Shown piece after piece: positions 23,056 to 40,725 of a DNA stretch of 64,000 nt. Each line of letters begins with the position of its first letter. Position 1 is the first letter of the stretch. The stretch lies in contig JANQEE010000015.1 in the NCBI GenBank assembly GCA_028278525.1, forward strand, positions 1 to 64,000, written 5' to 3'. The notes under the pieces were generated by a model. It had not been told where the DNA came from and searched no databases. It saw only the letters and a program-made list of their open reading frames with translations. This DNA is from Minwuiaceae bacterium (lineage in GTDB: Bacteria > Pseudomonadota > Alphaproteobacteria > Minwuiales > Minwuiaceae). Position numbers and translations under genes: made by a program.

Positions 23056-25506
23056 TTACGCTTTGATCCGCTCCATCCCGGGATCGTAAAGCGGCTTCAG
23101 ATGAACTTGGGCCGGCACCCGTTCGGTGGCGACTTCCAGTTCGTAGTCACCGCCCGTCACATAGGCCGCGTCGACGCCTTGCGAATTGCGGACGTAACCG
23201 TAGCCGATATTCTTACCGACCGTATAGCCGTAGCCGGCGGAGGTCAGCCAGCCGGCCCGCTGCCCGTTCCGGTAGATCGTCTCCCGGCCCAGTAGGATAA
23301 CGTCCGGATCGTCGACGGTGAAACAGGCGAGCATCTTTTTCACGCCGTCCGCCTTCTGAGCCAAAATCGCGTCCCGGCCCTTGAAGGCGATGTTCTTGTT
23401 CGTCTTCGCCGCCCAGCCGAGGCCCGCTTCGACCGGCGTATGGTCCGGCCCGATATCCGCGGCCCAGGCGCGGTAGCCCTTCTCCAGGCGCAGGGTCTCG
23501 ATAGCCCGGTAGCCGGCGTTGACAAGACTGTGCGGCTGCCCCGCCTCCATCAGCCTGTCGTAAACCGCCGTCGCGTACTCGACGGGCAGGTGCAATTCCC
23601 AGCCGAGCTCGCCCACATAGGTAACCCGAAGCGCCCGCACCGGGCAGCCGGCAATACCGATCACCTTGGTGGTCGCGAACGGAAAAGCCTCGTTGGAGAC
23701 GTCATCGCGGGTTACCGCCTGAAGGATGTCGCGCGCCCGCGGGCCCATCAGCGACAGCACCGTGTTCGACGAGGTGATATCGACAAGCTGCGCGTTCAGC
23801 TCATCTGGAATGTTCCGGCCGATCCAATCGAAATCATGCGTCGCGAAGCCCGTACCGGTGACGATGTAGTACTCGTCCTCGGCAATCCGCGCGACGGTCA
23901 GGTCGCATTGGATGCCGCCACGGTCGTTCAGCATCTGCGTATAGATCAGCGATCCCACTGGTTTCGCCACGTCGTTCGCTGCGATCCACGACAGCGCCGC
24001 CTCCGCGTCCGGTCCCTTCAACGCAAACTTGGCGAAGGACGTCTGGTCGAACAAAGCCGCCTCCTCGCGCGCCGCCCGATGCTCCCGCCCGACCGCGTCG
24101 AACCAGTTCGGCCGCCCGAAGGTATAGGCATCTTCCGCGGCCTCGCCGGCCGCCTCGTCTGCAAACCAGTTCGGCCGCTCCCAACCCAGCTTTTCGCCGA
24201 ACACGGCGCCTGCCGCCCTCAGCCGGTCGTAGAGCGGCGACTTGCGGCACGGACGCCCGGACGCATGCTCCTCGCTCGGCCATGCCATGGTGTAATGCTT
24301 GGCATAGGCTTCCAGGGTGCGGGTTCGGACCCAGTCGGTATCGAAATGCGGCCGCCCGAAGCGGCGGATATCGACCGGCCAGAGGTCGTAAGGCGGTTCC
24401 CCCTTATGCACCCATTCCGCCAGTGCCATGCCGGCGCCGCCGCCCGCCGCGATGCCGTAGGCATTGAAGCCGGCGCCGACGAAGAAACCGTTCTGTTCCG
24501 GCGCTTCGCCCAGGATGAAGTTGCCGTCAGGCGTAAAGCTCTCCGGCCCGTTGATCAGTTCCTTGATCCCGGCGTTATGCAGTGCCGGAACGCGGCCCAA
24601 CGCCAGTTCGATCATCGGCTCGAAGTGATCGAAATTCGACTCCAGCAGCGTGAAGTGAAAACCGTCCGGAATCCCGTCCACCGCCCAGGGAATCGGATTC
24701 GGTTCGTAGCCGCCCATCACCAGGCCGCCCACCTCTTCCTTGTAATAGGTAAGCCGGTCCGGATCGCGCAAGGTCGGCAGGTCCGAAGTGACCCCCTCGA
24801 TCTGCTCGGTCACGAAGTATTGGTGCTGCACGGGAACCAGCGGCACGTTGACACCCAGGGTCTTCGCGAAATCCCGCGTCCATTGTCCGGCGCAGCAGAT
24901 CACGGTGTTGGTGTCGATCCTCCCCGCCGATGTCTCCACGCCTGTGATGCAGCCGCCCTCGCGCGCGACCGACAGCACCTCGACATCTTCTACAATCCTG
25001 GCCCCCGCCATGCGCGCGCCCCGGGCCAGCGCCTGGGTGATGTCGGACGGGTTGGCCTGCCCGTCGGTCGACAGGTAAGCCGCGCCGATAACGTCGTCCA
25101 CATTCATCAGCGGCCAGAGGTCCTGGGCTTCCTTCGGCGTCAGAAGCTGCATGTCCAGGCCGAAGGAATGCGCCGTTGTCGCCTGCCGCTTCACCTCGGT
25201 CCAGCGCTCCGCGTTGCAGGCAAGCCGAAGCCCGCCGTTCATCTTCCACCCGGTGCCGAGCCCGGTCTCCTCTTCCAGGCTTTTGTAAAGCGCGACCGAC
25301 TCTCCCAGCAGCTGCGTGATATTGGCGCTCGACCGCAACTGGCCGACCAGCCCCGCAGCGTGGAACGTGGTGCCGGAGGTGAGTTTCTTCCGTTCCAGCA
25401 GCACGATCTCCGTCCAGCCCAGCCGGGCCAGATGGTAGGCGGTCGAGCAGCCGACGATGCCGCCGCCGATAATGACGGCCTGCGCGGATTTGGGTAACTC
25501 GGTCAC
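23056..25506 (-). CDS. FAD-dependent dimethylglycine/sarcosine dehydrogenase-like protein
   Basis: An 816-aa flavoenzyme with the dimethylglycine dehydrogenase architecture. Residues ~8-370 are a DAO-type FAD domain (VIIGGGIVGCSTAYHLARLGW at the N-terminus, and GFFVGAGFNAYGIAAGGGAGMALAEWV near the C-terminal part of the FAD domain); from ~430 comes the tetrahydrofolate-binding GcvT-like domain (REEAALFDQTSFAKFALKGPDAEAAL..., DLTVARIAEDEYYIVTGTGFATHDFDWI, LGWELHLPVEYATAVYD). Such enzymes demethylate N-methylated amines and hand formaldehyde to folate. The actual amine here is unknown. It lies between a small-molecule kinase and FAH gene in a ProXVW-type operon, which suggests it oxidises the compound imported by that transporter. 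Confidence 0.88.
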   Translation of the reverse strand: MTELPKSAQAVIIGGGIVGCSTAYHLARLGWTEIVLLERKKLTSGTTFHAAGLVGQLRSSANITQLLGESVALYKSLEEETGLGTGWKMNGGLRLACNAERWTEVKRQATTAHSFGLDMQLLTPKEAQDLWPLMNVDDVIGAAYLSTDGQANPSDITQALARGARMAGARIVEDVEVLSVAREGGCITGVETSAGRIDTNTVICCAGQWTRDFAKTLGVNVPLVPVQHQYFVTEQIEGVTSDLPTLRDPDRLTYYKEEVGGLVMGGYEPNPIPWAVDGIPDGFHFTLLESNFDHFEPMIELALGRVPALHNAGIKELINGPESFTPDGNFILGEAPEQNGFFVGAGFNAYGIAAGGGAGMALAEWVHKGEPPYDLWPVDIRRFGRPHFDTDWVRTRTLEAYAKHYTMAWPSEEHASGRPCRKSPLYDRLRAAGAVFGEKLGWERPNWFADEAAGEAAEDAYTFGRPNWFDAVGREHRAAREEAALFDQTSFAKFALKGPDAEAALSWIAANDVAKPVGSLIYTQMLNDRGGIQCDLTVARIAEDEYYIVTGTGFATHDFDWIGRNIPDELNAQLVDITSSNTVLSLMGPRARDILQAVTRDDVSNEAFPFATTKVIGIAGCPVRALRVTYVGELGWELHLPVEYATAVYDRLMEAGQPHSLVNAGYRAIETLRLEKGYRAWAADIGPDHTPVEAGLGWAAKTNKNIAFKGRDAILAQKADGVKKMLACFTVDDPDVILLGRETIYRNGQRAGWLTSAGYGYTVGKNIGYGYVRNSQGVDAAYVTGGDYELEVATERVPAQVHLKPLYDPGMERIKA

Positions 25507-25515
25507 CGTGACACC

Positions 25516-26391
25516 TCAGGTCTGAACGAAGTCGGCATAGGCGGCCTCGAACCGGGCCAGGTTTTCCGCCGTGTAGGCGGCGTAATCGAATTCCAGGCTG
25601 GAATGGATTTCCGACACCATGCTCCACATGCTCTCGCGCAGCAGCGAGGCGCATTTCATGGCCTGATAGCGGCGCCAGAGATCGTCCGTGACCGGCGCCT
25701 CGAAGTACGTTTCCAGCAGCCAGCGTTCCCGGGCTTCCGTGAGCTCGTTGTTGGAGGCCAGCCCGCCCAGATCGAACAGCGGGCTGTTGAAGCCCGCATA
25801 GTCCCAATCGAGCAGCCAGAGCCGGTCGCCGTCGTCGAGAATGTTCGCGGCCAGCAGGTCGTTGTGGCCGAACACGATATCGAACGGCCCGGCTGCAGCC
25901 TCCAACCGCTCGGACGCCGCCAGCAGATCCGGCAGTTTCGACAAATGCACACTGTCGCCGTCGCGCAGCGTCGCGGCGTAGTCGCGGACCACCTGGAACA
26001 CCCAGAAGATGAGCGCCGCCCCGCGTAGATGCTTGGGGATATCCCGGTGGCACGCAGCGATGAGCGGCACGATCCGATCCAGGTTCTTCTGTTGCCGGAT
26101 GTCGTCTGGCTCAAAGGCACGCCCGTCGATGAACTCGAGCACCAGGACGCCGGGCGCCGCATGGACCACCGCCGGCGACAGACCGGTCGCCGCCGCCGCG
26201 CGGCTCGCGGCCAACTCATTGAAGCGCATCACCTGATGCACCGGAATGTCGTCGCCAAGGCGTACGACAAAGGTGCCCTTGTCGTCCGTCACCTTGTAGT
26301 TCTTGTTGGTGATACCGCCTTCCAGCGGTTCGATCCGCGGCTTGCCCCGCCAGATCGGCAGGGCGCGAATGGGCGCGAGCGCATCAGCCAT
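25516..26391 (-). CDS. Choline-kinase/APH-type small-molecule phosphotransferase
   Basis: A 291-aa kinase of the aminoglycoside-phosphotransferase/choline-kinase superfamily. It contains the N-terminal lobe (GGITNKNYKV...FVVRLGDDIPVHQV), the catalytic HNDLLAANIL motif near residue 185, and the metal-binding DWDYAGFNS. The similarity of the GGITNKNYKV opening to LicA/choline kinase is notable. The ATG at 26391 has GAAGG seven bases upstream and overlaps the permease stop by eight bases. With a ProXVW-type importer upstream and a DeoR-type regulator divergent, it may phosphorylate the imported amine or alcohol; that link is inference. Confidence 0.85.
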   Translation of the reverse strand: MADALAPIRALPIWRGKPRIEPLEGGITNKNYKVTDDKGTFVVRLGDDIPVHQVMRFNELAASRAAAATGLSPAVVHAAPGVLVLEFIDGRAFEPDDIRQQKNLDRIVPLIAACHRDIPKHLRGAALIFWVFQVVRDYAATLRDGDSVHLSKLPDLLAASERLEAAAGPFDIVFGHNDLLAANILDDGDRLWLLDWDYAGFNSPLFDLGGLASNNELTEARERWLLETYFEAPVTDDLWRRYQAMKCASLLRESMWSMVSEIHSSLEFDYAAYTAENLARFEAAYADFVQT

Positions 26392-28423
26392 GACCACCTT
26401 CCAATCCGTAACGCCGCCGCGCCGCCCTGGCCGACGCCGAAATCAGCCGGTCGGCGATGATGGCGATAAACGCAACGGCCAGGCCCGCCACCAGGCCGCG
26501 GCCGGTGTCCGCCTTGGTCAGCGCGATATAGACCTCCTGGCCCAGGTCGCGCGTGCCGACCAGCGCCGTGATCACCAGCATCGACAGCGCCAGCATGATC
26601 GTCTGATTGATCCCCAGCAGGATTTCAGGGAACGCCAGCGGCAGGCGAATGCGCGTCAGCAGTTGACGCGGCGTGCAGCCGGAAACGATACCGGCTTCGA
26701 TCAATTGTCCGTCGACCGAACGGATGCCGTGCGCCGTATAACGGATCGCCGGGGCCAGTGCGTACAGCACCACCGCGATCATCGCGGTGAAGTCGCCGAC
26801 CCGGAACAGCATCACCACGGGGATCAGGTAGACGAAGCTCGGCAGCGTCTGCAGCGTATCAATGACGACGCCGATGACCTTGCCGGCGCGCTGGCTTAAC
26901 GCCGCCCAGATGCCGAGGGGAATGCCGATGGCGGACGCGATGATCACCGACGCCCCGCAGAGGTATACGGTCGTCATCGCCTTCGGCCAAAGCCCGGTTA
27001 CCGCGATGAAACCGGCAAGCGAAGCGCAGAGCAGCGCCAGCTTCCAGCGTCCGAAATGCCAGCCCGCCAGCGTCACGACCACGATGCCCCAGGGCCAGGG
27101 AATGCCCAGCAGGAACCGTTTGATCGGCAGCAGAAACCAGGTCAGCAGCGCCGTCTTGATCGCCTCCAGCGTGTCGAACAGGTTGACGTTCAGCCACGCG
27201 ACCAGGCTCTCCCAGAACGCTGCGGTCGTCACGGTGTAAGCGTCCGGATAGGCCTGAAAGACCGGCGCCAACCGTCCCAAAAGGAACGCCCCGAGGATCG
27301 CCGCAATCACGATCAGCAGCCGTCGATGCCGCGCGATCAGGCCGGCCTCGGCGCCGCTTTCGCGATGATCGGGCCGGCGTGCCGCCAGGGCCTGGCTTAT
27401 CCGGTCGAGCGCGATGGCAAGCACGACGATCGCGATCCCCGCCTCCAGCCCGGCGCCGATATCCAGACGGCGCAACGAAGCGAGAACGTCGTAGCCGAGC
27501 CCGCCCGCGCCGATCATCGATGCAATGATCACCATGTTCAGCGACAGCATGATGACCTGGTTCACGCCGACCATCAGGCCCGGTCCGGCTGCAGGCACCA
27601 GCACGCGCCACATCATCTGCCGCGGCGTGCACCCGGCCATGACGCCGAAATCGACAATCTCCGGGTCGACGCCCTTCAGCGACAGGGTCGCGATACGGAC
27701 CATCGGCGGCATGGCGTAGATGATCGTCGCGACCAGCGCCGAGACCGGCCCGAAGCCGAACAGGAACAGGATCGGCACCAGATAGGCGAAGATCGGAATC
27801 GTCTGCATCAGGTCCAGCACCGGCATGATCGCCCGCTCGAACCAGGGCGCGCGGTAGGCCGCGATACCGAGCAGCAACCCGCCGGCAACGCCAATCGGCA
27901 CGGCGATGGCGATCGACGCCAGGGTCACCATCGCGCTGTCCCACTGGCCGAACACCGCGAGGTAGACGAACGCGCCGCCGGCTAAGGCGGCGAGCCGCCA
28001 GTCGCGGGCGTAATGGCCAAGGGCGACGACTCCGAGCGTCACCGCGATCCACGACAGCGGCGGCACAAGCTGCACGGCGTCGGAGCCGAGCCCTTGCATC
28101 AGGCCGGTCGACAAAAGGGCCAGCGCCAAGTCGTAGGGCACCTCGATCGCCCAGGCGATGCCGCGCGTCATTTCCCTGAACGTGAACAGACCGAAGCTCG
28201 CCTCTTCGACCAACCATTTCATGGCCGCGGAGATCTCGGATGCAATCGGCAGTTTCCAGCCGGACGGATAACGCACCATCCAGCGCGCGTCCCACGCCTT
28301 CGACAGGTCGCGCCCGTAGTTCGACAGCAAGACCGTCACGATCAGCACGGCGAACCAGAACGCGGGCACCGGCGCGACCCAACGGTGCCCAGCCTCCCGG
28401 CTTGCCGCGGCCACCGCCGTCAT
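26384..28423 (-). CDS. Fused double permease of a glycine-betaine/proline-type ABC transporter (ProW-like)
   Basis: A 679-aa membrane protein with two ProW-type permease domains in tandem. Each carries the conserved cytoplasmic loop and following segment: residues ~235-330 (GCTPRQMMWRVLVPAAGPGLMVGVNQVIMLSLNMVIIASMIGAGGLG) and ~560-660 (GCTPRQLLTRIRLPLAFPEILLGINQTIMLALSMLVITALVGTRDLG). Standard ProW has a single domain, so this is a fused version of the usual homodimer. The start is at 28423, overlapping the ATPase gene by four bases. Confidence 0.9.
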   Translation of the reverse strand: MTAVAAASREAGHRWVAPVPAFWFAVLIVTVLLSNYGRDLSKAWDARWMVRYPSGWKLPIASEISAAMKWLVEEASFGLFTFREMTRGIAWAIEVPYDLALALLSTGLMQGLGSDAVQLVPPLSWIAVTLGVVALGHYARDWRLAALAGGAFVYLAVFGQWDSAMVTLASIAIAVPIGVAGGLLLGIAAYRAPWFERAIMPVLDLMQTIPIFAYLVPILFLFGFGPVSALVATIIYAMPPMVRIATLSLKGVDPEIVDFGVMAGCTPRQMMWRVLVPAAGPGLMVGVNQVIMLSLNMVIIASMIGAGGLGYDVLASLRRLDIGAGLEAGIAIVVLAIALDRISQALAARRPDHRESGAEAGLIARHRRLLIVIAAILGAFLLGRLAPVFQAYPDAYTVTTAAFWESLVAWLNVNLFDTLEAIKTALLTWFLLPIKRFLLGIPWPWGIVVVTLAGWHFGRWKLALLCASLAGFIAVTGLWPKAMTTVYLCGASVIIASAIGIPLGIWAALSQRAGKVIGVVIDTLQTLPSFVYLIPVVMLFRVGDFTAMIAVVLYALAPAIRYTAHGIRSVDGQLIEAGIVSGCTPRQLLTRIRLPLAFPEILLGINQTIMLALSMLVITALVGTRDLGQEVYIALTKADTGRGLVAGLAVAFIAIIADRLISASARAARRRYGLEGGHG

Positions 28424-29436
28424 TGCTCCCGGCCCCGCCCGATCATCACGTCGATAATCGCGGCCCGGTCGACGGAGCCGACGATTCTGCCGTCCTCGTC
28501 GGCGACCGGCACCGGCATTTCGGCGTCGATCACCCGCTCCGCGACCTCGGCAATCGTCGACGCTCGGGCAACCGGCTCGCCTTCACCGCCGGCCGCAGCG
28601 GCCATCACCGCACCGACGGTCAACACCTTGTCGCGCGGAATATGCCGCGTGAACTCCGCCACGTAGTCGGTCGCCGGCGCGCGCACCAGGCCTTCCGGCG
28701 TATCAACCTGGATGATCGCCCCGTCCTTCATGATGGCGATCCGGTCGGCCAGGCGGATCGCCTCGTCGAAGTCGTGGGTGATAAACACGATGGTCTTCTT
28801 CAAAATCGCCTGCAGCCGCAGGAACTCGTCCTGCATCTCGCGGCGGATCAGCGGGTCCAGCGCCGAGAACGGCTCGTCCAGGAACCAGACCTCCGGCTCG
28901 ACGGCCAGGGACCGGGCGATGCCGACCCGCTGCTGCTGCCCGCCGGAAAGCTCGCGCGGATAGTAGCTTTCGCGGCCCTTCAGTCCGACCAGGTCGATCA
29001 CCTGGCGGGCCCGTTCCCGGCGCTTGGCCTTCTTCTCGCCCTGGATATCCAGGGGGAACTCGACGTTTTGCAGCACCGTCAAATGCGGCAGCAGCGCGAA
29101 ATGCTGGAACACCATGCCGAATTTATAGCGACGGATATCGATCATCTCGCGCTCGGTGGCGGTGCGCAGATCGCGTCCTTCGAACAGCAATGCCCCCGCG
29201 GTCGGCTCTATCAGGCGGGAGAGACAGCGCACCAGCGTCGATTTTCCCGACCCCGAAAGCCCCATGATGACGAAGATCTCGCCTTCGCGAATCTCCAGGT
29301 CGGCGGCGCGGACCGCGGCGATCAGGCCACGCTCACGAATCTCTTCCGGCGATGGCGAAGGGTCGGCGCGCAACAGGGCCTCGGCCTCCGCGCCGAACAG
29401 CTTCCAGAGATTGCGGCAACTCAGCTTAGCGGACAC
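28420..29436 (-). CDS. Glycine-betaine/proline-type ABC transporter ATP-binding protein (ProV-like)
   Basis: A 338-aa ATPase. It starts at GTG 29436 (GGAGGG nine bases upstream), giving SAKLSCRNLWKLFG, the usual ProV opening; the much longer open frame running back into the binding-protein gene is not used. Walker A is GLSGSGKST, signature LSGGQQQR, Walker B VWFLDEPFSALD. A long ProV-type loop (GMVFQHFALLPHLTVLQNVEFPLDIQG) follows the Q-loop. The C-terminal ~80 residues hold a single CBS-like regulatory module (VGSVDRAAIIDVM), which in OpuA/ProV senses ionic strength; half the usual number of CBS repeats is visible. Confidence 0.9.
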   Translation of the reverse strand: MSAKLSCRNLWKLFGAEAEALLRADPSPSPEEIRERGLIAAVRAADLEIREGEIFVIMGLSGSGKSTLVRCLSRLIEPTAGALLFEGRDLRTATEREMIDIRRYKFGMVFQHFALLPHLTVLQNVEFPLDIQGEKKAKRRERARQVIDLVGLKGRESYYPRELSGGQQQRVGIARSLAVEPEVWFLDEPFSALDPLIRREMQDEFLRLQAILKKTIVFITHDFDEAIRLADRIAIMKDGAIIQVDTPEGLVRAPATDYVAEFTRHIPRDKVLTVGAVMAAAAGGEGEPVARASTIAEVAERVIDAEMPVPVADEDGRIVGSVDRAAIIDVMIGRGREQ

Positions 29437-29528
29437 CGGCGCAAAGCCCTCCGGCGGAGCGGCGATGCCGCGCCTGAGCGGTGGAAAGCGCGAGCCAAGG
29501 CTGTCGGATGCCCCAGCCCGCGATGCTG

Positions 29529-30485
29529 TTACTGAATCCAGCTTTTCCAGTGCTTCTCGTTCTTCGCCATCCACTCCGCGACCACCTCTTCCAGCGGCCG
29601 CTTGTCCAGGTCGACGGCGGAGACCATCGCGCCCATCTCCGCGTTGGAGATGTTGAACGCCTCGATCGCCCTGTAGGCGCCGGGCCACTTGTCCTTGACG
29701 CCGGCCCAGGTGACCTTCCAGATCGGGCCGCGCGGCTTGCCGCAGTCATAGGCGGCATCGGGGTTGGAGCCCCACGACGCATCCTCGTAGCACTCTTTCG
29801 TGTAAGGCGGGAATTCGACCCATTCGCCTTCGAACTTCGTCGGTGCCCAATGCGGTGCGTAAACCCATAAGACGATCGGCGCCTTGCGCTGGTAAGCCGA
29901 TTGCAGTTCCGCGAAGAGTGCGGCATCGGTACCCGCATGGACAACCTCGAAATCCATTTCCAACGCTTCGACCCGCTCGTCGTCAAAGCCGCCCCAGGTC
30001 ACCGGCGCGCCGAGATAGCGGCCCATCGGCGCGGTCTCGGGCGTCGCGAATTCCTCGGCGCAGTCGTTCAGCGCCTGCCAGTCCGGCAGGCCGGGGCAGG
30101 CTTCCTTCATGTAGGCCGGGTACCACCATTCCTCGATCGCCTGCATGCCGGTCGATCCGGCATTGACCACCTTGCCGGTCGCCGTCGCCTCGTCCATCGC
30201 CTCGCGGCCGGTGGTTTCCCAGATCTCCATGGCGACATGCAGGTCGCCGGTCTTCAGGCCCGCGAACTGGGCGATGTAGTCGGCCTGGACCAGTTCGACA
30301 TTGTAGCCGGCGTTCTTCAGAACCTCCGCCATCAGGTTGGTGGTGAGCAACTGCCCGGTCCAGTCGTGCAATGTCATCTTAATCGGGTCTTTGGATTCGA
30401 CCTCGGCCATGGCCGGTGTCACGGCCAGAGCCAGCCCAAGCACAATCCCTGTCAGGTGCGTTTTCGCTATCGTCAGTGTTTTCAT
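29529..30485 (-). CDS. Glycine-betaine/proline-type ABC transporter substrate-binding protein (ProX/OpuAC-like)
   Basis: A 318-aa periplasmic binding protein with a signal peptide (residues 1-27, ending TPAMA). The body starts IKMTLHDWTGQLLTTNLMAEVLKNAGYNVELVQADYIAQFAGLKTGDLHVAMEIW, the OpuAC/ProX type, and contains several Trp residues that in relatives form the aromatic box around a quaternary ammonium group. Which amine is bound (choline, betaine, carnitine or other) cannot be read. It is the first gene of the operon, and its promoter lies in the divergent gap with deoR. Confidence 0.9.
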   Translation of the reverse strand: MKTLTIAKTHLTGIVLGLALAVTPAMAEVESKDPIKMTLHDWTGQLLTTNLMAEVLKNAGYNVELVQADYIAQFAGLKTGDLHVAMEIWETTGREAMDEATATGKVVNAGSTGMQAIEEWWYPAYMKEACPGLPDWQALNDCAEEFATPETAPMGRYLGAPVTWGGFDDERVEALEMDFEVVHAGTDAALFAELQSAYQRKAPIVLWVYAPHWAPTKFEGEWVEFPPYTKECYEDASWGSNPDAAYDCGKPRGPIWKVTWAGVKDKWPGAYRAIEAFNISNAEMGAMVSAVDLDKRPLEEVVAEWMAKNEKHWKSWIQ

Positions 30486-30653
30486 TATCGGTCCCCATTT
30501 CGTCCGGGAAGCCTCTATCCCGCGCGCCAGTATGAGTGTCTACCGGGAAAGTGTTCGCCAAAACGGAGAGACCGTCAACAAAAACCCACAAAAAGCCTCT
30601 TTAACGTGTTTTTATATTGATTCTGATTGTCGGATAAGGAGATGGATCGCCCG
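30486..30653. promoter_or_regulatory. Divergent promoter region between binding-protein gene and deoR
   Basis: A 168-base gap that becomes AT-rich at 30575-30625. ACAAAAA occurs twice, at 30578-30584 and 30588-30594, ten bases apart, that is on the same helix face; direct repeats of this kind are typical DeoR-family sites. AAGGAG at 30636-30641 serves the deoR start. The repeat is a candidate only. Confidence 0.4.
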
Positions 30654-31448
30654 ATGCCTCGGACCCAGACACGCGGCAACCATCGCGAACGCGAGATACT
30701 CGACGAAGTGCGCCTTGCCGGCGGCGCCGCCCGCATTCACTTCCTGGCCGAGCGGCTCGGCGTTTCCGAAGAGACCATCCGCCGCAACGTGAAGGCACTG
30801 GAAGCCGGCGGCCAGATCCAAAAGGTCCACGGCGGGGTCTACCTGGTCGAACCCCAGAACGAACAGCCCTTCCGTCAGCGCATGGACGAGAACGCGGACG
30901 CCAAGCGCCGGATCGCCGCCGAAGTCGCGAACATCATCCAGGACGGCGATGCCCTGTTTCTCGACATCGGTTCGACCACCGCCTACATCGCACAGGCTTT
31001 GCAGCGCCACGCGGACCTGTTCGTCGTGACGAACTCCCTGGCCGTGGCGCACACCCTCGCCGCGCGCAACGGCAATCGGGTCTTCATGGCCGGCGGCGAG
31101 TTGCGGGCGCATGACGGCGGCGCCTTCGGCGTCGAGGCGCTGGAGTTCGTCCGCCGCTTCAGTGTGCGCTATGCGGTGCTCTCGGTCGGCGCAATCCATG
31201 CCGATGCCGGCTTCATGCTGCACGACATGCAGGAGGCAGAGTTCTCCCGGGCCGTTATGGGCTGCGCGCAAACCCGGATCGTCGCCGCCGACAGCGAAAA
31301 GTTCGGCAGGAACGCCCCGATCGTCCTGACGGAGCCCGCGACCGTCGACATGCTGGTGACCGAAGCCCCGCCGCCCCGGCCCATCGCGGACCTGCTGGCG
31401 CAAAACGACGTCGACATCGTCCTGGCCGGCGTCGGCAGAGGCGGCTGA
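30654..31448 (+). CDS. DeoR-family transcriptional regulator
   Basis: A 264-aa regulator with an N-terminal DeoR helix-turn-helix (REREILDEVRLAGGAARIHFLAERLGVSEETIRRNVKALEAGGQIQKVHGGVYL) and the C-terminal sugar-phosphate-isomerase-like sensor domain (DIGSTTAYIAQAL..., FVVTNSLAVAHTL). DeoR regulators generally respond to phosphorylated metabolites. It is divergent from the transporter/kinase/oxidase operon, so the phosphorylated product of the APH-type kinase is a plausible inducer. The ATG at 30654 follows AAGGAG by 12 bases; an ATG at 30642 touches it and a TTG at 30627 precedes it. Its 3' end is duplicated, diverged, at 35752-35913. Confidence 0.9.
   Translation: MPRTQTRGNHREREILDEVRLAGGAARIHFLAERLGVSEETIRRNVKALEAGGQIQKVHGGVYLVEPQNEQPFRQRMDENADAKRRIAAEVANIIQDGDALFLDIGSTTAYIAQALQRHADLFVVTNSLAVAHTLAARNGNRVFMAGGELRAHDGGAFGVEALEFVRRFSVRYAVLSVGAIHADAGFMLHDMQEAEFSRAVMGCAQTRIVAADSEKFGRNAPIVLTEPATVDMLVTEAPPPRPIADLLAQNDVDIVLAGVGRGG
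31284..31448 (+). repeat. Direct repeat: 3' end of deoR (left copy)
   Basis: The last ~165 bases of the intact deoR gene match the remnant at 35752-35913 at most positions, including the shared ends GTCGACATGCTGGTGACC and GGCAGAGGCGGCTGA. The two copies flank the lipoprotein gene pair in direct orientation. Confidence 0.85.
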
Positions 31449-31590
31449 ACCAGCGGGCCTAACGGCCGATCATTGGCCAAATCCCGAAGTTGCCGGCGGC
31501 GGCAGCAACCTGGACCGTACCGCGCGGCACGCCTCTCTTTGGGAAGCCTATGGTCGATCCCGTGTACGCAAAAGATTGAGCAACCGACTC

Positions 31591-34500
31591 TCAGCCTGAC
31601 GGCGCTTGACCTGTGACTTGAATGGTTTCACGAAAATCGTCGATAGCGTCACGGCGGCCTTCAACCATGGCTGTCAGGGTTTCTTGTATTGCGCCCCTCA
31701 CGACATCTTTGAGCGCTGCGACCCTGCCTTTTGCAAATGCTAAGGCTTCAGCCGCCTTCGACACATCATTGTGAAGCGTGTCTAAGGTCGCTGATGCGCT
31801 TGTCAAGTCTTCCCGAGCTTGATTGAGAGCGCCTTCCGCATCGGAAACCGCTGTTTCATAGTCGCCTTTTTGGGGAGCTTCTGCATTACCAACCAGCAGA
31901 CTGTCTCGCTTCGCTCTCGCCAACTCTAGCTCGCGTTCCCTCGACGCCAGCTTTTTTTTGGCTTCCGTAATCGCGGCCTGCTTGGCGGAAAGCGCTTTCT
32001 TCGCCGTTTCATGCTTGGTTGCAGCATCCGACGCCAATTCTACGCCATCGAGGCTGCGCAACAGACCTGCGCGCCTGTTTATCAACAGGTCGAGCACACG
32101 GCCAATACTATTCGTCTGCGCCTTGGCCCGCGCCAGACAACCGGCCCGCTGCTCCGCGAGCTTGTCCAAATCGCATGCCATCTCCGGCTTCATCAATTCA
32201 CTTTCGGCCTGGCTCACCTCGCGCCCGGCCAGAGTAAAAGGAACAGGTTGACCGGCATTGTCCTGAACCAAGGCAAGCGCGTTCGCACGGTTAGGCAACG
32301 TCCCATCGTCGGGCAACGCAGCCAGCCAACCATCGCGAATTTTGGTTGGCAGTCCTTTGTTTGCAACGCGTTCCTTCAACAACTCAAAGTCGGCGCCGGT
32401 GCGCTCCAAGAATTTCCGTTCCGCCGTATCAAAAATTGCTCGGTATGCCCTATTCGGGCCGCCGGCTGCGGCATCAGCTCGGTTCATGCTTTGCAGGTTG
32501 CCCAATTCATCGCTTTCTTGCTCGGATAGCTCCCCGTCTTTCTTGTCGCGTTTGAGTTCCAGATTGCGTTGCCGCAATAGGTTCATGTTCAAATTGCCGC
32601 CGGCGGAAAACAGCGCCAGACTTTGCGCACCGCGTATGATCGGCTCCGGATCGGCCGAGAATCCCTTTGCGTACCAGTTCCCGATATCGTCTTTCACCAG
32701 CGCATAGTTGGTGATACCCGCGCCGGCCAAGCGAACGCTGTTGATGTTCTGCCAGAACTGTTTATCGATTTTCTGTAGTGTCTCTAGGCGGCCCTCGTCA
32801 TCCTTATTGACCCATTTCTCGCCGATGAATGGTATCGACCGTTTCATGTGCGCCCACAACATATTTTCCCAAGAAAGCCTCGGATCGCTTTGTAATCCGG
32901 TTGCGGCGTAGCTGGTCCTGAGATAAGCGCTGGGTGGACGGATGTAGACCATGCCAGAACGGTGCTCCAACGCGATAGCGAGCGCCCGTTCTAGATATCG
33001 TACGCGATCTGATTTCGGCAGGTCGGACGGCCCCGTGGGTCGGCTCTCCCTGTCGCCGTCCTCATCCACGGAGACATCATCCTTTGCCGGATCTGACTCA
33101 CTTTTATCCAAGGCGCCGGTGTTCGTCTCCAGCGAGTCGGTCGTGCGCGGGATCAATGGAAGGACCACAACCGGCTCGAGCCCGCCATGCGTAGACCTTT
33201 CGTCGATTTCCGCTCCTTCACTTTTCGTCATCTGCGAACCGGTTTCGGCTGCTTGTGCCCGAGTTGCAGCAATCAGCTCACCTCGCAATACAGCGATCAG
33301 CCTGTCCATCACTTGGCGCTTCGTTATTATCCTTCGTTTTGATTCAAGCGGTTCGACGCATGTGTCAGCAGAGCAGTAAGTGCTCCTCCTAAGGTCGTCT
33401 AACCCTGGGGCCATTAGGAACTCTGCACCAAGCGCTACCTCGATGCCCTCCAACTCCGATTTGAGCGCCGTCAAGTCTGTTTCCTTGAATTTATGTTCCT
33501 TCTGGCGCACTAACTCATCTGCTTGAACGAGTATAGAGTTCCCGATCGCTTGAAGGACAAGCGTGTATGTCCTAACTGACTTATCCGTGACTTGACCGGA
33601 CCGTAGCAACTCTTCGTTGTTAGCCATTTTCAGTATCTTGACCGCAAACCGTATCAACGCCTTTATTAGTTGATCATCCGTTCTTGTCACCTCTGTATCT
33701 GTGCTAAGTGAGGTCGGTTCCATCCGCCCCAAATCTTCGACCAATTGGCTCCTTAAGTAGTCCTGGATCAGCGTCTCCAAGCCTTCTTCCAAGCGACCGC
33801 CGCCAAGGCCGCCTGTTGCCAAAAGGATTTTCAAGTCTCCCCCGCCTCCAAGTGCCGCTGTGAATAGCGCCGGCGAACCTCCGCGAACGCCGCCGAAGCG
33901 AAGGCTCAGGCTCCGAGCTATGCCATAACGGCGTCGCACATCCTTGGCTAGTTTGGCTTCCGCAGCAGGATGATCACCTACACCCAGAAAGTCATTGTCG
34001 TCTTGCCTACTCTTTACCCAGTCATGAGCTTGCTGTAGTTGATTAACCGTGGCTTCGGGATACTTGATCAGTATATCCTTCAAAACCCTGACGGCTTCGT
34101 CATAGTGATCATCTGTCCATTTCTCTTCGCGCCAGAATTCACTTCCGGCCGGAGTTGCTCTTTCCAATCGCTTGCGGAGCGTCTCACGCACAGCCTTCGG
34201 TGCTGTCGGTGCATACATTACGATAGCAACGCTACGTGGTTGCGTAAGCCTAGAAACCATCGCAGCAGCCTCGGCGCGAAATTCGGGCCGCTTATCCCCA
34301 AACACAAAAACACTTTCGGTAAAAATATCGACCGAAATTTGCCAAAGTTTTTCCACCAGGTTTCTTAACCTAACGTAGTCTTTGCTCGGCGTCGTATCGC
34401 GGTTGCTACGAAGTTTGTCTTCGTCAGCTTTTTGAATCTCTGATTGATAGAACTTTGAAAACCGGGTGAATTCATCAATCGAACTGGAGAGCCTGGGCGA

Positions 34501-34923
34501 AGGTTTCGGTAGTTCCTCATGCGGCAAGGCACAGACAGCCAAGTCAGCTTTGTTTTTGTATAAACCCAAGATCTCGTTGACACGTACGGCCTGGTACTTC
34601 TCCAGATGGCCATCTATGTCGTCACGATCGCTAGGTGGGAGGTCTGGACAAACCTTCATGTAGTCATATTTATAGCCATGTTTGTGAACGTCCAAACTCG
34701 GAATCTCTGTAAGAATTCCGCTGTTGCCCCACTCGATGTTGTCTCGCAGCTCGATCAGCAAGGGCTTTGCTCCAATGGCCATCGTAGCGAGTTCCTGAAA
34801 TTGAACATGCGTATGATTGGCTAGTGGGCCTTTGTATACATCGACGTCGATACGCAGAACGGAACAGGCACCGAGGCATAGAATGCTCGCGCCAAGCGTG
34901 ATCGGGCGGAGAAGTGCGATCAT
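31591..34923 (-). CDS. Large unrecognised lipoprotein
   Basis: A 1110-aa protein that I do not recognise. The N-terminus is a lipoprotein signal with lipobox LGAC (Cys20), followed by SVLRID, so it is probably anchored to a membrane and faces the periplasm or cell surface. There are charged helical regions, an Asp/Glu/Ser-rich linker (about 590-640) and, near residues 960-1080, a long Ala/Lys/Glu/Arg-rich heptad-like coiled coil (TKHETAKKALSAKQAAITEAKKKLASREREL). No catalytic motif is evident. Its ATG overlaps the stop of the upstream lipoprotein gene by four bases. Lower GC than neighbours suggests transfer. A surface, secretion-linked or conflict-related role is possible but not supported by a motif. 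Confidence 0.8.
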   Translation of the reverse strand: MIALLRPITLGASILCLGACSVLRIDVDVYKGPLANHTHVQFQELATMAIGAKPLLIELRDNIEWGNSGILTEIPSLDVHKHGYKYDYMKVCPDLPPSDRDDIDGHLEKYQAVRVNEILGLYKNKADLAVCALPHEELPKPSPRLSSSIDEFTRFSKFYQSEIQKADEDKLRSNRDTTPSKDYVRLRNLVEKLWQISVDIFTESVFVFGDKRPEFRAEAAAMVSRLTQPRSVAIVMYAPTAPKAVRETLRKRLERATPAGSEFWREEKWTDDHYDEAVRVLKDILIKYPEATVNQLQQAHDWVKSRQDDNDFLGVGDHPAAEAKLAKDVRRRYGIARSLSLRFGGVRGGSPALFTAALGGGGDLKILLATGGLGGGRLEEGLETLIQDYLRSQLVEDLGRMEPTSLSTDTEVTRTDDQLIKALIRFAVKILKMANNEELLRSGQVTDKSVRTYTLVLQAIGNSILVQADELVRQKEHKFKETDLTALKSELEGIEVALGAEFLMAPGLDDLRRSTYCSADTCVEPLESKRRIITKRQVMDRLIAVLRGELIAATRAQAAETGSQMTKSEGAEIDERSTHGGLEPVVVLPLIPRTTDSLETNTGALDKSESDPAKDDVSVDEDGDRESRPTGPSDLPKSDRVRYLERALAIALEHRSGMVYIRPPSAYLRTSYAATGLQSDPRLSWENMLWAHMKRSIPFIGEKWVNKDDEGRLETLQKIDKQFWQNINSVRLAGAGITNYALVKDDIGNWYAKGFSADPEPIIRGAQSLALFSAGGNLNMNLLRQRNLELKRDKKDGELSEQESDELGNLQSMNRADAAAGGPNRAYRAIFDTAERKFLERTGADFELLKERVANKGLPTKIRDGWLAALPDDGTLPNRANALALVQDNAGQPVPFTLAGREVSQAESELMKPEMACDLDKLAEQRAGCLARAKAQTNSIGRVLDLLINRRAGLLRSLDGVELASDAATKHETAKKALSAKQAAITEAKKKLASRERELELARAKRDSLLVGNAEAPQKGDYETAVSDAEGALNQAREDLTSASATLDTLHNDVSKAAEALAFAKGRVAALKDVVRGAIQETLTAMVEGRRDAIDDFRETIQVTGQAPSG

Positions 34924-35618
34924 TTTTCCGCGCCCTTAACTTGTTGCTCGAGTTTCGAGATGCGCTCGCCTTCTTCGCTGATGAGCTCCAGCGCTTCGAA
35001 TAGGTCCCGTTGTAGCGTTGCATCGCCGGTGCCGCCCTGGGTCGCCGTCGCAATCGCGCCCAGCGCTTCGTTGATCGCATCGAAATATGTCTCCGGGCTG
35101 GACCCCATGGCGATGACCAGTCGGTGATTCCCCGGCGACTCTCGAAAGCCCTCCGGCCCGAATACGATGAGACGTCGGCCCTTCGTCGCCGACGTCTTCA
35201 GTCCTTCGGTTTTGTCGAGCTCGACTTTGCCGGAGTCTTTGTTGAAAGAAATGCTGGTCCCCAGCGCGTCGGCGAATTCCGCCGGCACCCAACCGCTGGC
35301 AAACCGGCCGAAGCTGATGAGGCTCGACTGACCGTGCACCCGTACGCGGTAGACAGATGGTGGAACCTGTTCCTGTGGATCGAAAACACCCAGATAATAC
35401 GTTTGTTGGATTTCGCCGGCTGGAGACTGCGCGCCGAGCGCTGTAAGACCGACCGCCAGACCCGCCGTTTGTTCAGGCGTGCTGCAAGCAGTCAACAAAG
35501 CGACGCCGACCGCAGTGACGCCCACGCGCAAAGGCCGCAAATGGCGATACTTTGATTGGACCGTTCGCCGCTTCCCAGGCACGACGAAAGGATTCTTTTC
35601 CCCCAACACAGCGCCCAC
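34920..35618 (-). CDS. Unrecognised lipoprotein, first gene of the pair
   Basis: A 232-aa protein with lipobox LTAC (Cys45) after a hydrophobic run (VGVTAVGVALLTACSTPEQ) that is preceded by a basic stretch (KRRTVQSKYRHLRPLR). The mature part is a small mixed alpha/beta domain (YYLGVFDPQEQVPPSVYRVRVHGQSSLISFGRFASGWVPAEFADALGTSISFNKD) ending in a short acidic/basic coiled-coil (RDLFEALELISEEGERISKLEQQVKGAEK). The first in-frame codon is GTG at 35618, with its purine run touching it; GTG 35609 has AAGGGG at a better distance and may be the true start. It reads directly into the 1110-aa lipoprotein; the two are likely to act together. Confidence 0.75.
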   Translation of the reverse strand: MGAVLGEKNPFVVPGKRRTVQSKYRHLRPLRVGVTAVGVALLTACSTPEQTAGLAVGLTALGAQSPAGEIQQTYYLGVFDPQEQVPPSVYRVRVHGQSSLISFGRFASGWVPAEFADALGTSISFNKDSGKVELDKTEGLKTSATKGRRLIVFGPEGFRESPGNHRLVIAMGSSPETYFDAINEALGAIATATQGGTGDATLQRDLFEALELISEEGERISKLEQQVKGAEK

Positions 35619-35751
35619 CCCTTACACATTTTTGTCAGACCACTTCGTTTGAGTGGCCTACCAATTTCTTATTCTTTAAGTTGTACTATATCATTGATCT
35701 TGCCGCAACACGCGAATTTCACCTGGTGAGTCCGCGCCTGGCTTTCATGTC

Positions 35752-35913
35752 GTGGCCGACAGCGAAAAGCTCGGCAGAAGCGCCCCGATCGTCCTGGCCG
35801 AGCCCGCGACCGTCGACATGCTGGTGACCGAGGCGCCGCCCCCGCCGATCGCCGACCTGCTGACGCAAAACGACGTCGATATCGTCCTGGCCGGCGCCGG
35901 CAGAGGCGGCTGA
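35752..35913 (+). pseudogene. Remnant of a DeoR-family regulator 3' end (direct repeat, right copy)
   Basis: Translates as VADSEKLGRSAPIVLAEPATVDMLVTEAPPPPIADLL... and ends VLAGAGRGG followed by a stop, nearly the same as the last 53 residues of the intact DeoR protein (AADSEKFGRNAPIVLTEPATVDMLVTEAPP...). It has a few substitutions and a three-base deletion, so it is diverged rather than a recent copy. There is no promoter, start or N-terminal domain. Weak similarity may extend to about 35735 (GGCTTTCATG versus the GGCTTCATG of deoR), which would mean an internal deletion. Confidence 0.85.
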
Positions 35914-35963: not shown

Positions 35964-36764
35964 ATGGATAGCAGCGACAAACCGGTTGCCGTCGAACGGC
36001 GCGACCGTGTCCTTTGGCTGACAGTCAACCGGCCGGAACGGCGCAATTCCCTGAACGGCGTCGTGTTCGACGCCCTGATCGAGGCGCTGACCGCGGCGGA
36101 TCGGGATGCCGGAATCCGCGCTGTCGTGCTGACGGGCGCCGGCGATAAGGCGTTTTCGGCCGGCGCGGATCTAAAGCCGGATACCCAATACACCGCACTC
36201 TCGCTCGGTGACGACGTGGCCGAACATCCCTATGTGCGTTTCGCCCGGGCGGCGCGCCGGTTCAGCAAGCCGCTGGTCGCGCGGGTCAACGGAGACGCGC
36301 TCGCCGGCGGGCTCGGCCTGCTCTCGCTCTGCGATATGGCGGTAGCGGCGGACCATGCCCGGGTCGGCCTGCCGGAAGTGAGGATCGGCCTGTTCCCGCT
36401 GGTCATCGTCGCCTCGCTGCGTCGGCTGATCCCGCGCCGCATCCTGATGGAAATGGCGATCACGGGGGAATTCCTGGACGCGGCAACGGCGAAGGAAATC
36501 GGCCTGTTCAACTACATCGTGCCTCGGGACGAGTTGGACGCCAAGACCGACTGGCTGATCCAACGCATCCTCGACAAGTCGCCGACCGCGGCCCGCCGCG
36601 GCAAGCTCGCCATGCAGCGCATGTGGGAAATGACGGAGGACGATTCCCTGTCCCACGCGCAATCCGAACTGGCGCTGCTGTTCGCGACAGCCGATCACGC
36701 GGAAGGCCTGGCCGCCTTCAACGAAAAGCGCGCGCCCAACTGGCCAGGCTCGCGCGACGACTAA
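35964..36764 (+). CDS. Enoyl-CoA hydratase/isomerase family protein
   Basis: A 266-aa crotonase-fold protein. Key regions are the oxyanion-hole loop SAGADLK (residues ~65-72, in [19 protein letters not shown]) and the second hole segment [21 protein letters not shown]. The position of the first catalytic Glu is not obvious from the linear sequence (NGDALAGG then [10 protein letters not shown]); Glu in LPEVRIG probably serves as the second. Substrate unknown. Its stop overlaps that of the convergent pta gene by two bases. Confidence 0.88.
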
Positions 36765-37768
36765 CCGACCGCCCCGTCCATCGCGTTCGCCTGCACGCCG
36801 GTCACGGCGATCATATGATAGACATCGTCGGCGCTGCAGCCGCGCGACAGGTCGTTGGCGGGGCGGGCCAGCCCCTGCAGGATCGGACCGATCGCCTTCG
36901 CGCCGCCGATCCGCTGCGCGATCTTGTAGCCGATATTGGCGGCGTCCAGATTGGGAAAAACCATCACGTTCGCCCGCCCTTTCAGGGGCGAGTCGGGCGC
37001 TTTAGCGGCGCTGACCGCCGGCACGAAGGCGGCGTCGAACTGCAGGTCGCCGTAGACCTTCAGGTCCGGCCGCATGGAACCGACCAACCCCGACGCCTCG
37101 ACCACATGACTCACCCGGTCGTGCCGGGCGCTGCCGCTGGTCGAGAACGAGAGCATGGCGACACGCGGCTCCTCGCCGATCAGCGCGCGGAAGGACTCGG
37201 CGGAAGCGATGGCGATGGTGGCCAGTTCCTTGACCGTCGGCTCGACGATCAGGCCGCAATCGGCAAACACCAGCGCGCCTTTCTGCTCGTGGTGCGGCTC
37301 GCACAGCATCATCAGGAAGAAGCTGGAGACCGTTTCGACACCCGGTGCGCGGCCGATGATCTGCAAGGCGGCCCGCACCGTATCGGCGGTTGTCGCGACC
37401 GCGCCGCCGACGGCCCCGTCGGCGGCCCCCAGGCGCACCATCATCGCCGCGAAACCCAACGGATCGGTCATCGCCGTCCGGGCCCTGTCGATGTCGATGC
37501 CCTTATGCTTTCGCAGCTCGTAATACGCGGCGGCGTAAGTCTCGGGCGTTTCCGCCGGATCGACGATATCCAACCCCACCTCATCGGCGCCCAGCGCGGC
37601 AATCTTCTCCTGGATGACCGCCGGTTGTCCAAGCAGGGTGATGCGGGCGATGCCGTCGCGCACCGCACGCACGGCACCTTCAACAACGCGCGAATCCTCC
37701 CCTTCGGCAAGGACGATCCGTTTCGGGTTCGCCGCGGCGGCGGCAAGAATATCGTCGAGCGGTTTCAT
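36761..37768 (-). CDS. pta: Phosphate acetyltransferase, short type
   Basis: A 335-aa Pta (catalytic domain only), converting acetyl phosphate plus CoA to acetyl-CoA. It begins [32 protein letters not shown] and contains [45 protein letters not shown] and the [14 protein letters not shown] end block. GAGG lies six bases before the ATG. It stands last in the unit iseJ-xsc-yeiH-pta, where it would turn the acetyl phosphate made by Xsc into acetyl-CoA. Confidence 0.93.
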
Positions 37769-37785
37769 CGGGACCTCACAACGGG

Positions 37786-38820
37786 TCACGCGAGATAGTG
37801 AATGCCGGCGAGGATGATGCCGGCGATCAAAAGCGTCTCGGCGACGATCAGCGTGATGGCCTGACCGCCGACATCGAAAACGCTGCGGAACGATGTCTTC
37901 ATCCCGACCGCCGCGATCGCGACCAGCAGCGCCCAGCGCGACAGGTCGCCCAGTTGTTCGCCGACCGCCGCGGGAATCAGGCCGAAAGAGTTCAGCGCCG
38001 CGAGGCCGATGAAGGGCAGGACGAACCCCGGGATCAGCGGCGGCCGCTTCGTCTGGCACGGCTGTTCCGCGCCCGCCGCCCGGATCGCAAGCGCGAAAAC
38101 CAGCACGACCGGGGCCAGCATGGTCACGCGGATCAGCTTGACGACGGTCGCCGTCTCGCCCGTCTCCGCCGAGACCGAGAATCCGGCGCCGACCACCTGC
38201 GCCACGTCGTGAATGGTGCCGCCGAGGAAGATGCCGGTCGCCCGCGCATCCAGATCGAAGATCTCCGTGATCATCGGATAGGCGATCATGGCGATCGTGC
38301 TCAGCACCGTGACGCTCAGCACCGTGAAGATCAGGTTGCGTTCGGAGAACTGGTTCTTCGGTAAAACGGCGGCGATCGCCATGGCAGCCGACGCGCCGCA
38401 GATCGCGACCGAGCCACCGGTCAAAAGCGCCAGCCGCCAGCCCCGGCCAAGCAGCCGCGCCCCGAGCAGGCCGAACAGGATGGTGGCGATAACGCTGAGG
38501 ACGACCAGCGCGATCATTTCCGCCCCAAGGCCGATCAGCAATTCGACGCTGATCCTGACGCCCAGAAGCGCCACGCCGAAGCGCAGTACCGTCGTTGCCG
38601 TGAACTGGATACCCGGAACGCAGCGCCCTTCTTCCGCCAGAAAGTGAAACGCGATGCCCAGCAGCAGCGCCATCAGCATCGCCGGCGCGCCGTAGTGATC
38701 GGACAGGAACTGTGCCGTGATGGCGACGGCCACGGACACCAGGAAACCGGGGCCGGCTTCTCTGAGAAACGCCCGTGTTCGTCCCAGTCCCGTTGCTACG
38801 ACACCTGTATCGCTTGTCAT
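37786..38820 (-). CDS. YeiH-family putative anion exporter
   Basis: A 344-aa membrane protein (about ten hydrophobic segments) of the UPF0324/YeiH family. Recognisable blocks: [56 protein letters not shown] and [19 protein letters not shown]. In sulfonate-degradation clusters YeiH- or TauZ-type proteins are thought to export sulfite or sulfate released by Xsc, which fits its position between xsc and pta. This is inference from context; the transported ion is not read from the sequence. Confidence 0.85.
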
Positions 38821-38871
38821 CTTTTTATTCGGCGGCGGCCGATTGCGTCGGCCGCCGCCTTATCCATGGGT

Positions 38872-40650
38872 TCAGGCGATCTGCTGCGGGCGCATATCGT
38901 CCTTGCTGATGCCGGCAACGACCGTCGGCTTCTTCATCGCGTCGCGGCGGAACGGCTCGCCCAGTTCCTGGTTGAGCACGACTTCCAGGAACGTGGTCAC
39001 GTTGTCTTCCATCTGCGCCTTGACCGCCGCCCGCAGGCCCTCGGTCAGTTCGTCCATGGTGGTGACCTGTACGCCCTTGACCCCGCAACCCTCGGCGACC
39101 TTCGCGTACTCGACGCCGAGATTGAGTTCGGTGCCAACGAAGTTGTCGTCGAACCAAAGCGTCGTGTTGCGCTTTTCCGCGCCCCATTGGTAGTTGCGGA
39201 AGATCACCATGGTGATCGGCGGCCAGTCGTTGCGGCCGCAGGCGGTCATCTCGCTCATCGAGATGCCGAAGGCGCCGTCGCCGGCAAAGCCGATGACCGG
39301 CACGTCGGGGCGGCCGATCTTGGCGCCGAGAATCGCCGGGAAGCCATAGCCGCAAGGACCGAACAGGCCCGGCGCGAGATACTTCCGGCCCTCCTCGAAG
39401 GTCGGGTAGGCATTGCCGATGGCGCAGTTATTGCCGATGTCCGACGAGATGATCGCATCCTTCGGCATCGCCGCCTGAATGGCGCGCCAGGCCATGCGCG
39501 GCGACATCCGTTCCGGCTGGCGGTTGCGCGCCCGCTCGTTCCAGTTGGTGCCCGGATCGTCGTCCTCATGGTCCATCGACGAGAGCGTCTGCAGCCAGCG
39601 CGACTTGGTCTCGGCGACCAGTTCCCGCCGCTCTTTCCGGCCCTCGTCGCCGGCGTTGCCGGAGAGTTGCTGGAAGACCTGCTCCGCCACGGCCTTGGCA
39701 TCGCCCTGGATGGCGACCGTGACTTTCTTGGTCAGCCCGATCCGGTCGGCGTTGATGTCGACCTGGATGACCTTGGCTTCCGTCGGCCAGTAGTCGATAC
39801 CGTAACCCGGCAGCGTCGAGAACGGATTGAGCCGGGTGCCGAGCGCCAGCACCACGTCCGCCTTGGCGATCAGTTCCATCGCCGCCTTCGAGCCGTTATA
39901 GCCGAGCGGACCGACCGACAGAGGATGCGAGCCGGGGAAGGCGTCGTTGTGCTGGTAGCCGCAGCAGACCGGTGCATCCAGACGCTCCGCCAGGACCTTC
40001 GAGGCGTCGATCGCGCCGGAAAGGACCACTCCGGCGCCATTCAGGATCACCGGGAATTGCGCCTTCGACAGCAGCCTCGCGGCATCGGCGATCGCTTCCG
40101 GCCCGCCCGCCGGCCGTTCCAGCCGCACCGTCTGCGGCAGGTCGATATCGACTACCTGGGTCCAGTAATCGCGCGGTACGTTGATCTGCGCCGGGGCGCA
40201 GCCGCGCCAGGATTTCTCGATCACCCGGTTCAGGACTTCCGCGATGCGCGACGGATCGCGTACCTCCTCCTGATAGCAGACCATGTCCTCGAACAGTTTC
40301 ATCTGCTCGATTTCCTGGAAGCCGCCCTGCCCGATCGTCTTATTGGCGGCCTGCGGCGTCACCAGCAGCATCGGCGTATGGTTCCAGTAAGCGGTCTTGA
40401 TCGGGGTCACGAAGTTGGTGATGCCCGGCCCGTTCTGGGCGATGGCCATGCACATCTTGCCGGTCGACCGGGTGTAGCCGTCCGCGATCATGCCGGCGTT
40501 GCCCTCATGCGCGCAGTCCCAGAAGGTAATGCCGGCTGCCGGAAACAAATCGGAGATCGGCATCATCGCCGATCCAATGATGCCGAAGGAGTGCTCAATC
40601 CCGTGCATCTGCAAAACCTTCACGAAGGCTTCTTCCGTGGTCATTTTCAT
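38872..40650 (-). CDS. xsc: Sulfoacetaldehyde acetyltransferase (Xsc)
   Basis: A 592-aa thiamine-diphosphate enzyme converting sulfoacetaldehyde plus phosphate to acetyl phosphate plus sulfite. The ThDP-binding pattern (GDGAFGISMSEMTACGRNDWPPITMVIFRNYQWG, residues ~455-490) and the N-terminal MKMTTEEAFVKVLQMHGIEHSFGIIGSAMMPISDLFPAAGITFWDCAHEGNAGMIADGY, which is specific to Xsc among acetolactate-synthase relatives, are clear. The ATG at 40650 (AGGA nine bases upstream) is preferred over the longer frame from 40677. It joins iseJ on one side and a YeiH-type exporter and pta on the other, i.e. a full path from C2 sulfonate to acetyl-CoA. Confidence 0.95.
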   Translation of the reverse strand: MKMTTEEAFVKVLQMHGIEHSFGIIGSAMMPISDLFPAAGITFWDCAHEGNAGMIADGYTRSTGKMCMAIAQNGPGITNFVTPIKTAYWNHTPMLLVTPQAANKTIGQGGFQEIEQMKLFEDMVCYQEEVRDPSRIAEVLNRVIEKSWRGCAPAQINVPRDYWTQVVDIDLPQTVRLERPAGGPEAIADAARLLSKAQFPVILNGAGVVLSGAIDASKVLAERLDAPVCCGYQHNDAFPGSHPLSVGPLGYNGSKAAMELIAKADVVLALGTRLNPFSTLPGYGIDYWPTEAKVIQVDINADRIGLTKKVTVAIQGDAKAVAEQVFQQLSGNAGDEGRKERRELVAETKSRWLQTLSSMDHEDDDPGTNWNERARNRQPERMSPRMAWRAIQAAMPKDAIISSDIGNNCAIGNAYPTFEEGRKYLAPGLFGPCGYGFPAILGAKIGRPDVPVIGFAGDGAFGISMSEMTACGRNDWPPITMVIFRNYQWGAEKRNTTLWFDDNFVGTELNLGVEYAKVAEGCGVKGVQVTTMDELTEGLRAAVKAQMEDNVTTFLEVVLNQELGEPFRRDAMKKPTVVAGISKDDMRPQQIA

Positions 40651-40725
40651 GTGAGAGATCCTTTCTTTCTTATGCATGACCCGCCGGTCGTCGCGCGATG
40701 GGCGGATCGGGCGCTTCCCCAGTAC

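Follow-up and report, generated by a model that had tools for sequence, protein, structure and literature searches.

A two-lipoprotein gene pair between two copies of a deoR 3' end in a Minwuiaceae genome: a probable insertion scar

The window analysed here is a stretch of 64,000 nucleotides from a Minwuiaceae bacterium (contig JANQEE010000015.1, positions 1 to 64,000). It contains an intact deoR-family regulator gene, directly followed by a segment of lower GC content with two lipoprotein genes on the opposite strand, a headless second copy of the deoR 3' end and an enoyl-CoA hydratase gene (Table 1). On its left side the regulator belongs to a block (window 23056-31448) together with a betaine-type ABC transporter and an oxidoreductase of the sarcosine or dimethylglycine type, and this block is syntenic in many alphaproteobacteria. 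The association of deoR with the transporter and oxidoreductase cluster is conserved in many relatives, including G001 from the same family, and the nearest deoR relatives, which are 64-65% identical, adjoin the same transporter cluster. In none of the relatives compared for their deoR neighbourhood was the enoyl-CoA hydratase gene adjacent to deoR. Further to the right (window 36761-40677) are the genes for phosphate acetyltransferase (pta) and sulfoacetaldehyde acetyltransferase (xsc), a sulfonate degradation cluster.

Table 1. Features at the deoR site, in window coordinates
Feature	Position	Strand	Evidence or remark
deoR-family regulator, intact	30627..31448	+	Pfam DeoRC (E 2e-45) and HTH_DeoR; final 168 bases form the left repeat
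Left repeat copy, 3' end of intact deoR	31281..31448	+	Repeat alignment
Inserted segment, lower GC	31449..35748		Lies between the repeat copies
Large lipoprotein gene, 1110 aa	31591..34923	-	LGAC lipobox, IDVDVYKGPLANH motif, coiled-coil-like C terminus
Small lipoprotein gene, 232 aa	34920..35618	-	LTAC lipobox
Right repeat copy, headless deoR 3' fragment	35749..35913	+	Repeat alignment; open frame to TGA
Enoyl-CoA hydratase gene bordering the site	35964..36764	+	Pfam ECH_1 (E 1e-52)

The two deoR tails, of 168 and 165 bases, are in direct orientation and 90% identical (BLAST E 9e-59), and differ by 15 substitutions and one in-frame 3-nt deletion, the latter in the right copy. The alignment has a sharp start at a GTC codon and extends exactly to the TGA stop codon in both copies, and no similarity between the flanking sequences was detected beyond the repeat. 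This agrees with the original prediction that some 160 bases of the deoR 3' end recur headless beyond the lipoprotein genes, apart from coordinates that were a few bases off. A search of the whole genome (5.95 Mb) found the tail in these two places only, with no third copy, and the insert showed nothing that would correspond to the first 218 codons of another deoR. Since the copies are 10% diverged, an assembly artefact is unlikely. Homology to the recipient is present at one border of the insert at least.

The GC content of the insert is 0.547, compared with 0.648 for the window, and its gene content is restricted to the two lipoprotein genes, as had been predicted. These overlap by 4 bases, are both on the minus strand and each encode a lipobox cysteine. 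Their GC3 values (0.57 and 0.67) are below the mean of 0.79 over 20 window genes, which is only suggestive, since the lowest value among those 20 genes is 0.43. The predicted absence of a transposase or integrase was also borne out; neither an intact integrase nor a remnant was found in the insert, and the spacers, at 142 and 130 bp, could not accommodate a recombinase. A comparison of these spacers with the other lipoprotein pairs described below revealed nothing in common, and a scan for promoters and terminators gave nothing above chance. Useful family matches for either lipoprotein were absent from Pfam, NCBIfam, PHROGs, PADLOC and the PDB sequences, where the matches were weak and mainly within the coiled-coil region. 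Neither lipoprotein matched plasmid records, and the small one had no match in viral contigs. AlphaFold models of the two proteins (pLDDT 42 and 40) were too poor for a fold search. The pair is an orphan, undescribed two-lipoprotein operon family. Its members would be two envelope lipoproteins made from one operon, and we infer that they probably act jointly at a membrane.

Profile and protein searches located the pair in nine genomes of one class, namely the present one, G007 (of the same family as the host), G009, G287, G340, G759, G770, G782 and G800. The occurrence is sporadic, with 4 of 385 class genomes, in addition to G007 and a further four from the order to which G340 belongs. Species lacking the pair also occur in the genera of G759, G770 and G800. 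In all nine pairs the small gene lies immediately ahead of the large one, with a lipobox cysteine in both. The large gene of G287 (L087:10698-11381) ends after 227 codons, about 150 bp from the contig end, and is perhaps broken or affected by a sequence error. Besides the pair itself, no conserved neighbourhood was found when five loci were compared and the window proteins were searched against the other loci; the scattered cross-matches among the five were to common enzymes of metabolism, among them enoyl-CoA hydratases and acyl-CoA dehydrogenases. In the tree of the small lipoprotein, G340 is placed with G009 and G287 (support 98/96), apart from the four genomes of its own order. This conflict with taxonomy, together with the sporadic occurrence, indicates that the pair has been transferred horizontally and is foreign to the present chromosome. 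Weak relatives of the small lipoprotein are present in G498 and G505 (L133:409-2845 and L132:6042-6836), from the same phylum and outside the class, and in G498 the relative is followed by a 470-aa gene weakly matching the large lipoprotein.

Two of the other carriers, G007 and G340, were compared with their congeners, and empty sites for the pair were found in both genera. The closest congeners of G007 (G003 and G004) and the next closest (G008 and G002) are collinear across the site and all lack the pair, which in G007 occupies the gap from fadJ to a transporter gene's stop codon. Over its final 129 aligned bases this transporter gene is 24.8% different from that of G003, compared with 5.2% over the other 1190 bases, and the change is sharp, with a breakpoint at 133 bp (L080:12282-12415; 2dLL 46, shuffle maximum 17). 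The tail is about equally distant from all congeners. The tail of this gene is also faster-evolving where no insert is present (19% versus 10% between G003 and G004). The sequence comparison suggests that the G007 tail is probably imported. The empty site of G003 contains a palindromic repeated intergenic element (L108:11289-11358) related to L080:3207-3267 and 16667-16752.

Three congeners of G340 lack the pair, and in two of these, G749 and G750, 29 or 20 bp separate convergent gene ends where G340 has 5.5 kb including the pair. The borders of the G340 insertion are clean, with neither a repeat nor a replaced tail, and tail exchange is therefore not general across the pair insertions. In both G007 and G340 nothing but the pair entered, at the 3' ends of genes, and neither a recombinase nor a direct repeat accompanies it; the three other complete pairs tested had no flanking repeats. 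From these two congener comparisons, the pair is mobile as a minimal unit, and tail exchange is an optional part of the process.

The differences between the two deoR tails can be polarised only at conserved residues. The right copy has a leucine in place of a phenylalanine that is invariant in 28 of 28 relatives, and a loop that is one residue shorter, while all 28 relatives match the left copy in loop length. By these two features the left tail is the constrained copy and the right one has decayed in part. Such derived states are expected for any headless fragment and do not identify the native tail. Of the 15 substitutions, 4 are towards AT, 5 towards GC and 6 are G/C swaps, a GC-neutral pattern which does not look like the product of pure AT-biased decay. 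Seven of the 15 are at third codon positions (P 0.20), which also fits duplication followed by decay, and the codon-position and GC tests taken together do not separate decay from foreign origin.

The geometry of the site is compatible with three models, namely import on a homologous tail, duplication of the target with later decay, and a stripped integrative element. We consider it somewhat more probable than its opposite that the resident deoR recombined with incoming foreign DNA on which the pair lay together with a related deoR tail. The two lipoprotein genes would have been acquired horizontally as a two-gene unit, on DNA with a related deoR 3' end, which would have paired and recombined with the resident tail. 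This exchange would have been a Campbell-type single crossover, if the incoming piece was circularised, or else would have combined one homologous crossover with one illegitimate join. The outcome would be a complete deoR, perhaps a hybrid, with the lipoprotein pair behind it; beyond the pair the displaced resident tail would have remained without its head and decayed in part. The crossover in the deoR tail and the identity of the foreign copy are the inferred parts of this scheme. Our preference for the import is moderate and is based on the GC-neutral changes, the probably imported tail in G007 and the known recombination routes; the geometry, with an intact gene, cargo, a headless tail with the same stop codon and no recombinase, also favours it. 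As regards the original prediction of an insertion by homologous recombination, the insertion of the pair is upheld by its patchy distribution, the disagreement between tree and taxonomy and the empty sites in the congeners of two other carriers, while recombination with a related tail fits the data and has a likely parallel in G007.

It is possible, although rather unlikely, that the pair was inserted by illegitimate or break-repair joining, with duplication of some 165 bp at the end of the resident deoR, and that all divergence came later, mostly in the headless copy. The derived states at conserved sites, which are those of the right copy, and the near-neutral spread of changes over codon positions are in line with this; the lack of AT bias and the many G/C swaps are not, and no such duplication was found at the other pair insertions checked. 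The other alternative suggested originally, an old tandem duplication of deoR in which most of the second copy was lost and the lipoprotein pair is incidental, would account for the direct orientation of two tails that are in register. The head of the supposed second deoR is missing, none of the relatives found has two adjacent copies at this locus, and the pair is independently mobile, which makes this reading highly improbable.

Integrative elements are known that replace the 3' end of their target gene, as do e14 and phage 21 at icd, and they likewise leave an intact gene with a diverged end and the headless original end on the far side. A site-specific element of this type, which would have attached at a deoR 3' end and restored the end of the gene, could have been stripped of its integrase. 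Cis-mobilizable elements (CIMEs) do keep att sites without integration genes (PMC5704250), and resemble the deoR site in that a duplicated gene end encloses the cargo. A CIME proper is one whose integrase has gone, but its recognition requires some trace of that gene or a parent element. In contrast to the e14 and phage 21 type, the deoR insert has no integrase, not even a remnant within its short spacers, and its cargo is the two lipoprotein genes only; in contrast to a CIME, it has no identified att core or parent element. With the pair found elsewhere without flanking repeats, we regard a stripped element as unlikely.

Import by recombination on the deoR tail would follow established routes. 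DNA, linear or circularised, is known to integrate by homology-facilitated illegitimate recombination and by single crossover (PMC3240628), and the same routes are used in the evolution of gene arrays (PMC5361080). Such imports share with the deoR site one homologous anchor, foreign cargo, orphaned 3' ends and the lack of a recombinase, but have been shown experimentally or among strains of one species, whereas the deoR case is read from one genome. It is tempting to speculate that the pair is a mobile cassette without recombinase, spreading through alphaproteobacterial genomes and entering repeatedly at stop codons on the short 3' tails of its neighbours, with gene tails as homing arms. This is quite improbable; selection against disruption would leave insertions at unbroken gene ends, and special targeting is therefore not needed.

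Overall, the insertion scar at deoR is probably real and its mechanism ordinary. What is new is the lipoprotein family, while the recombination mechanism is of a kind already known. The site would represent a readable case in which a gene pair entered the chromosome at a gene end and the scar was preserved, and it defines an undescribed family of two-lipoprotein operons that moves between distant families as a minimal unit.
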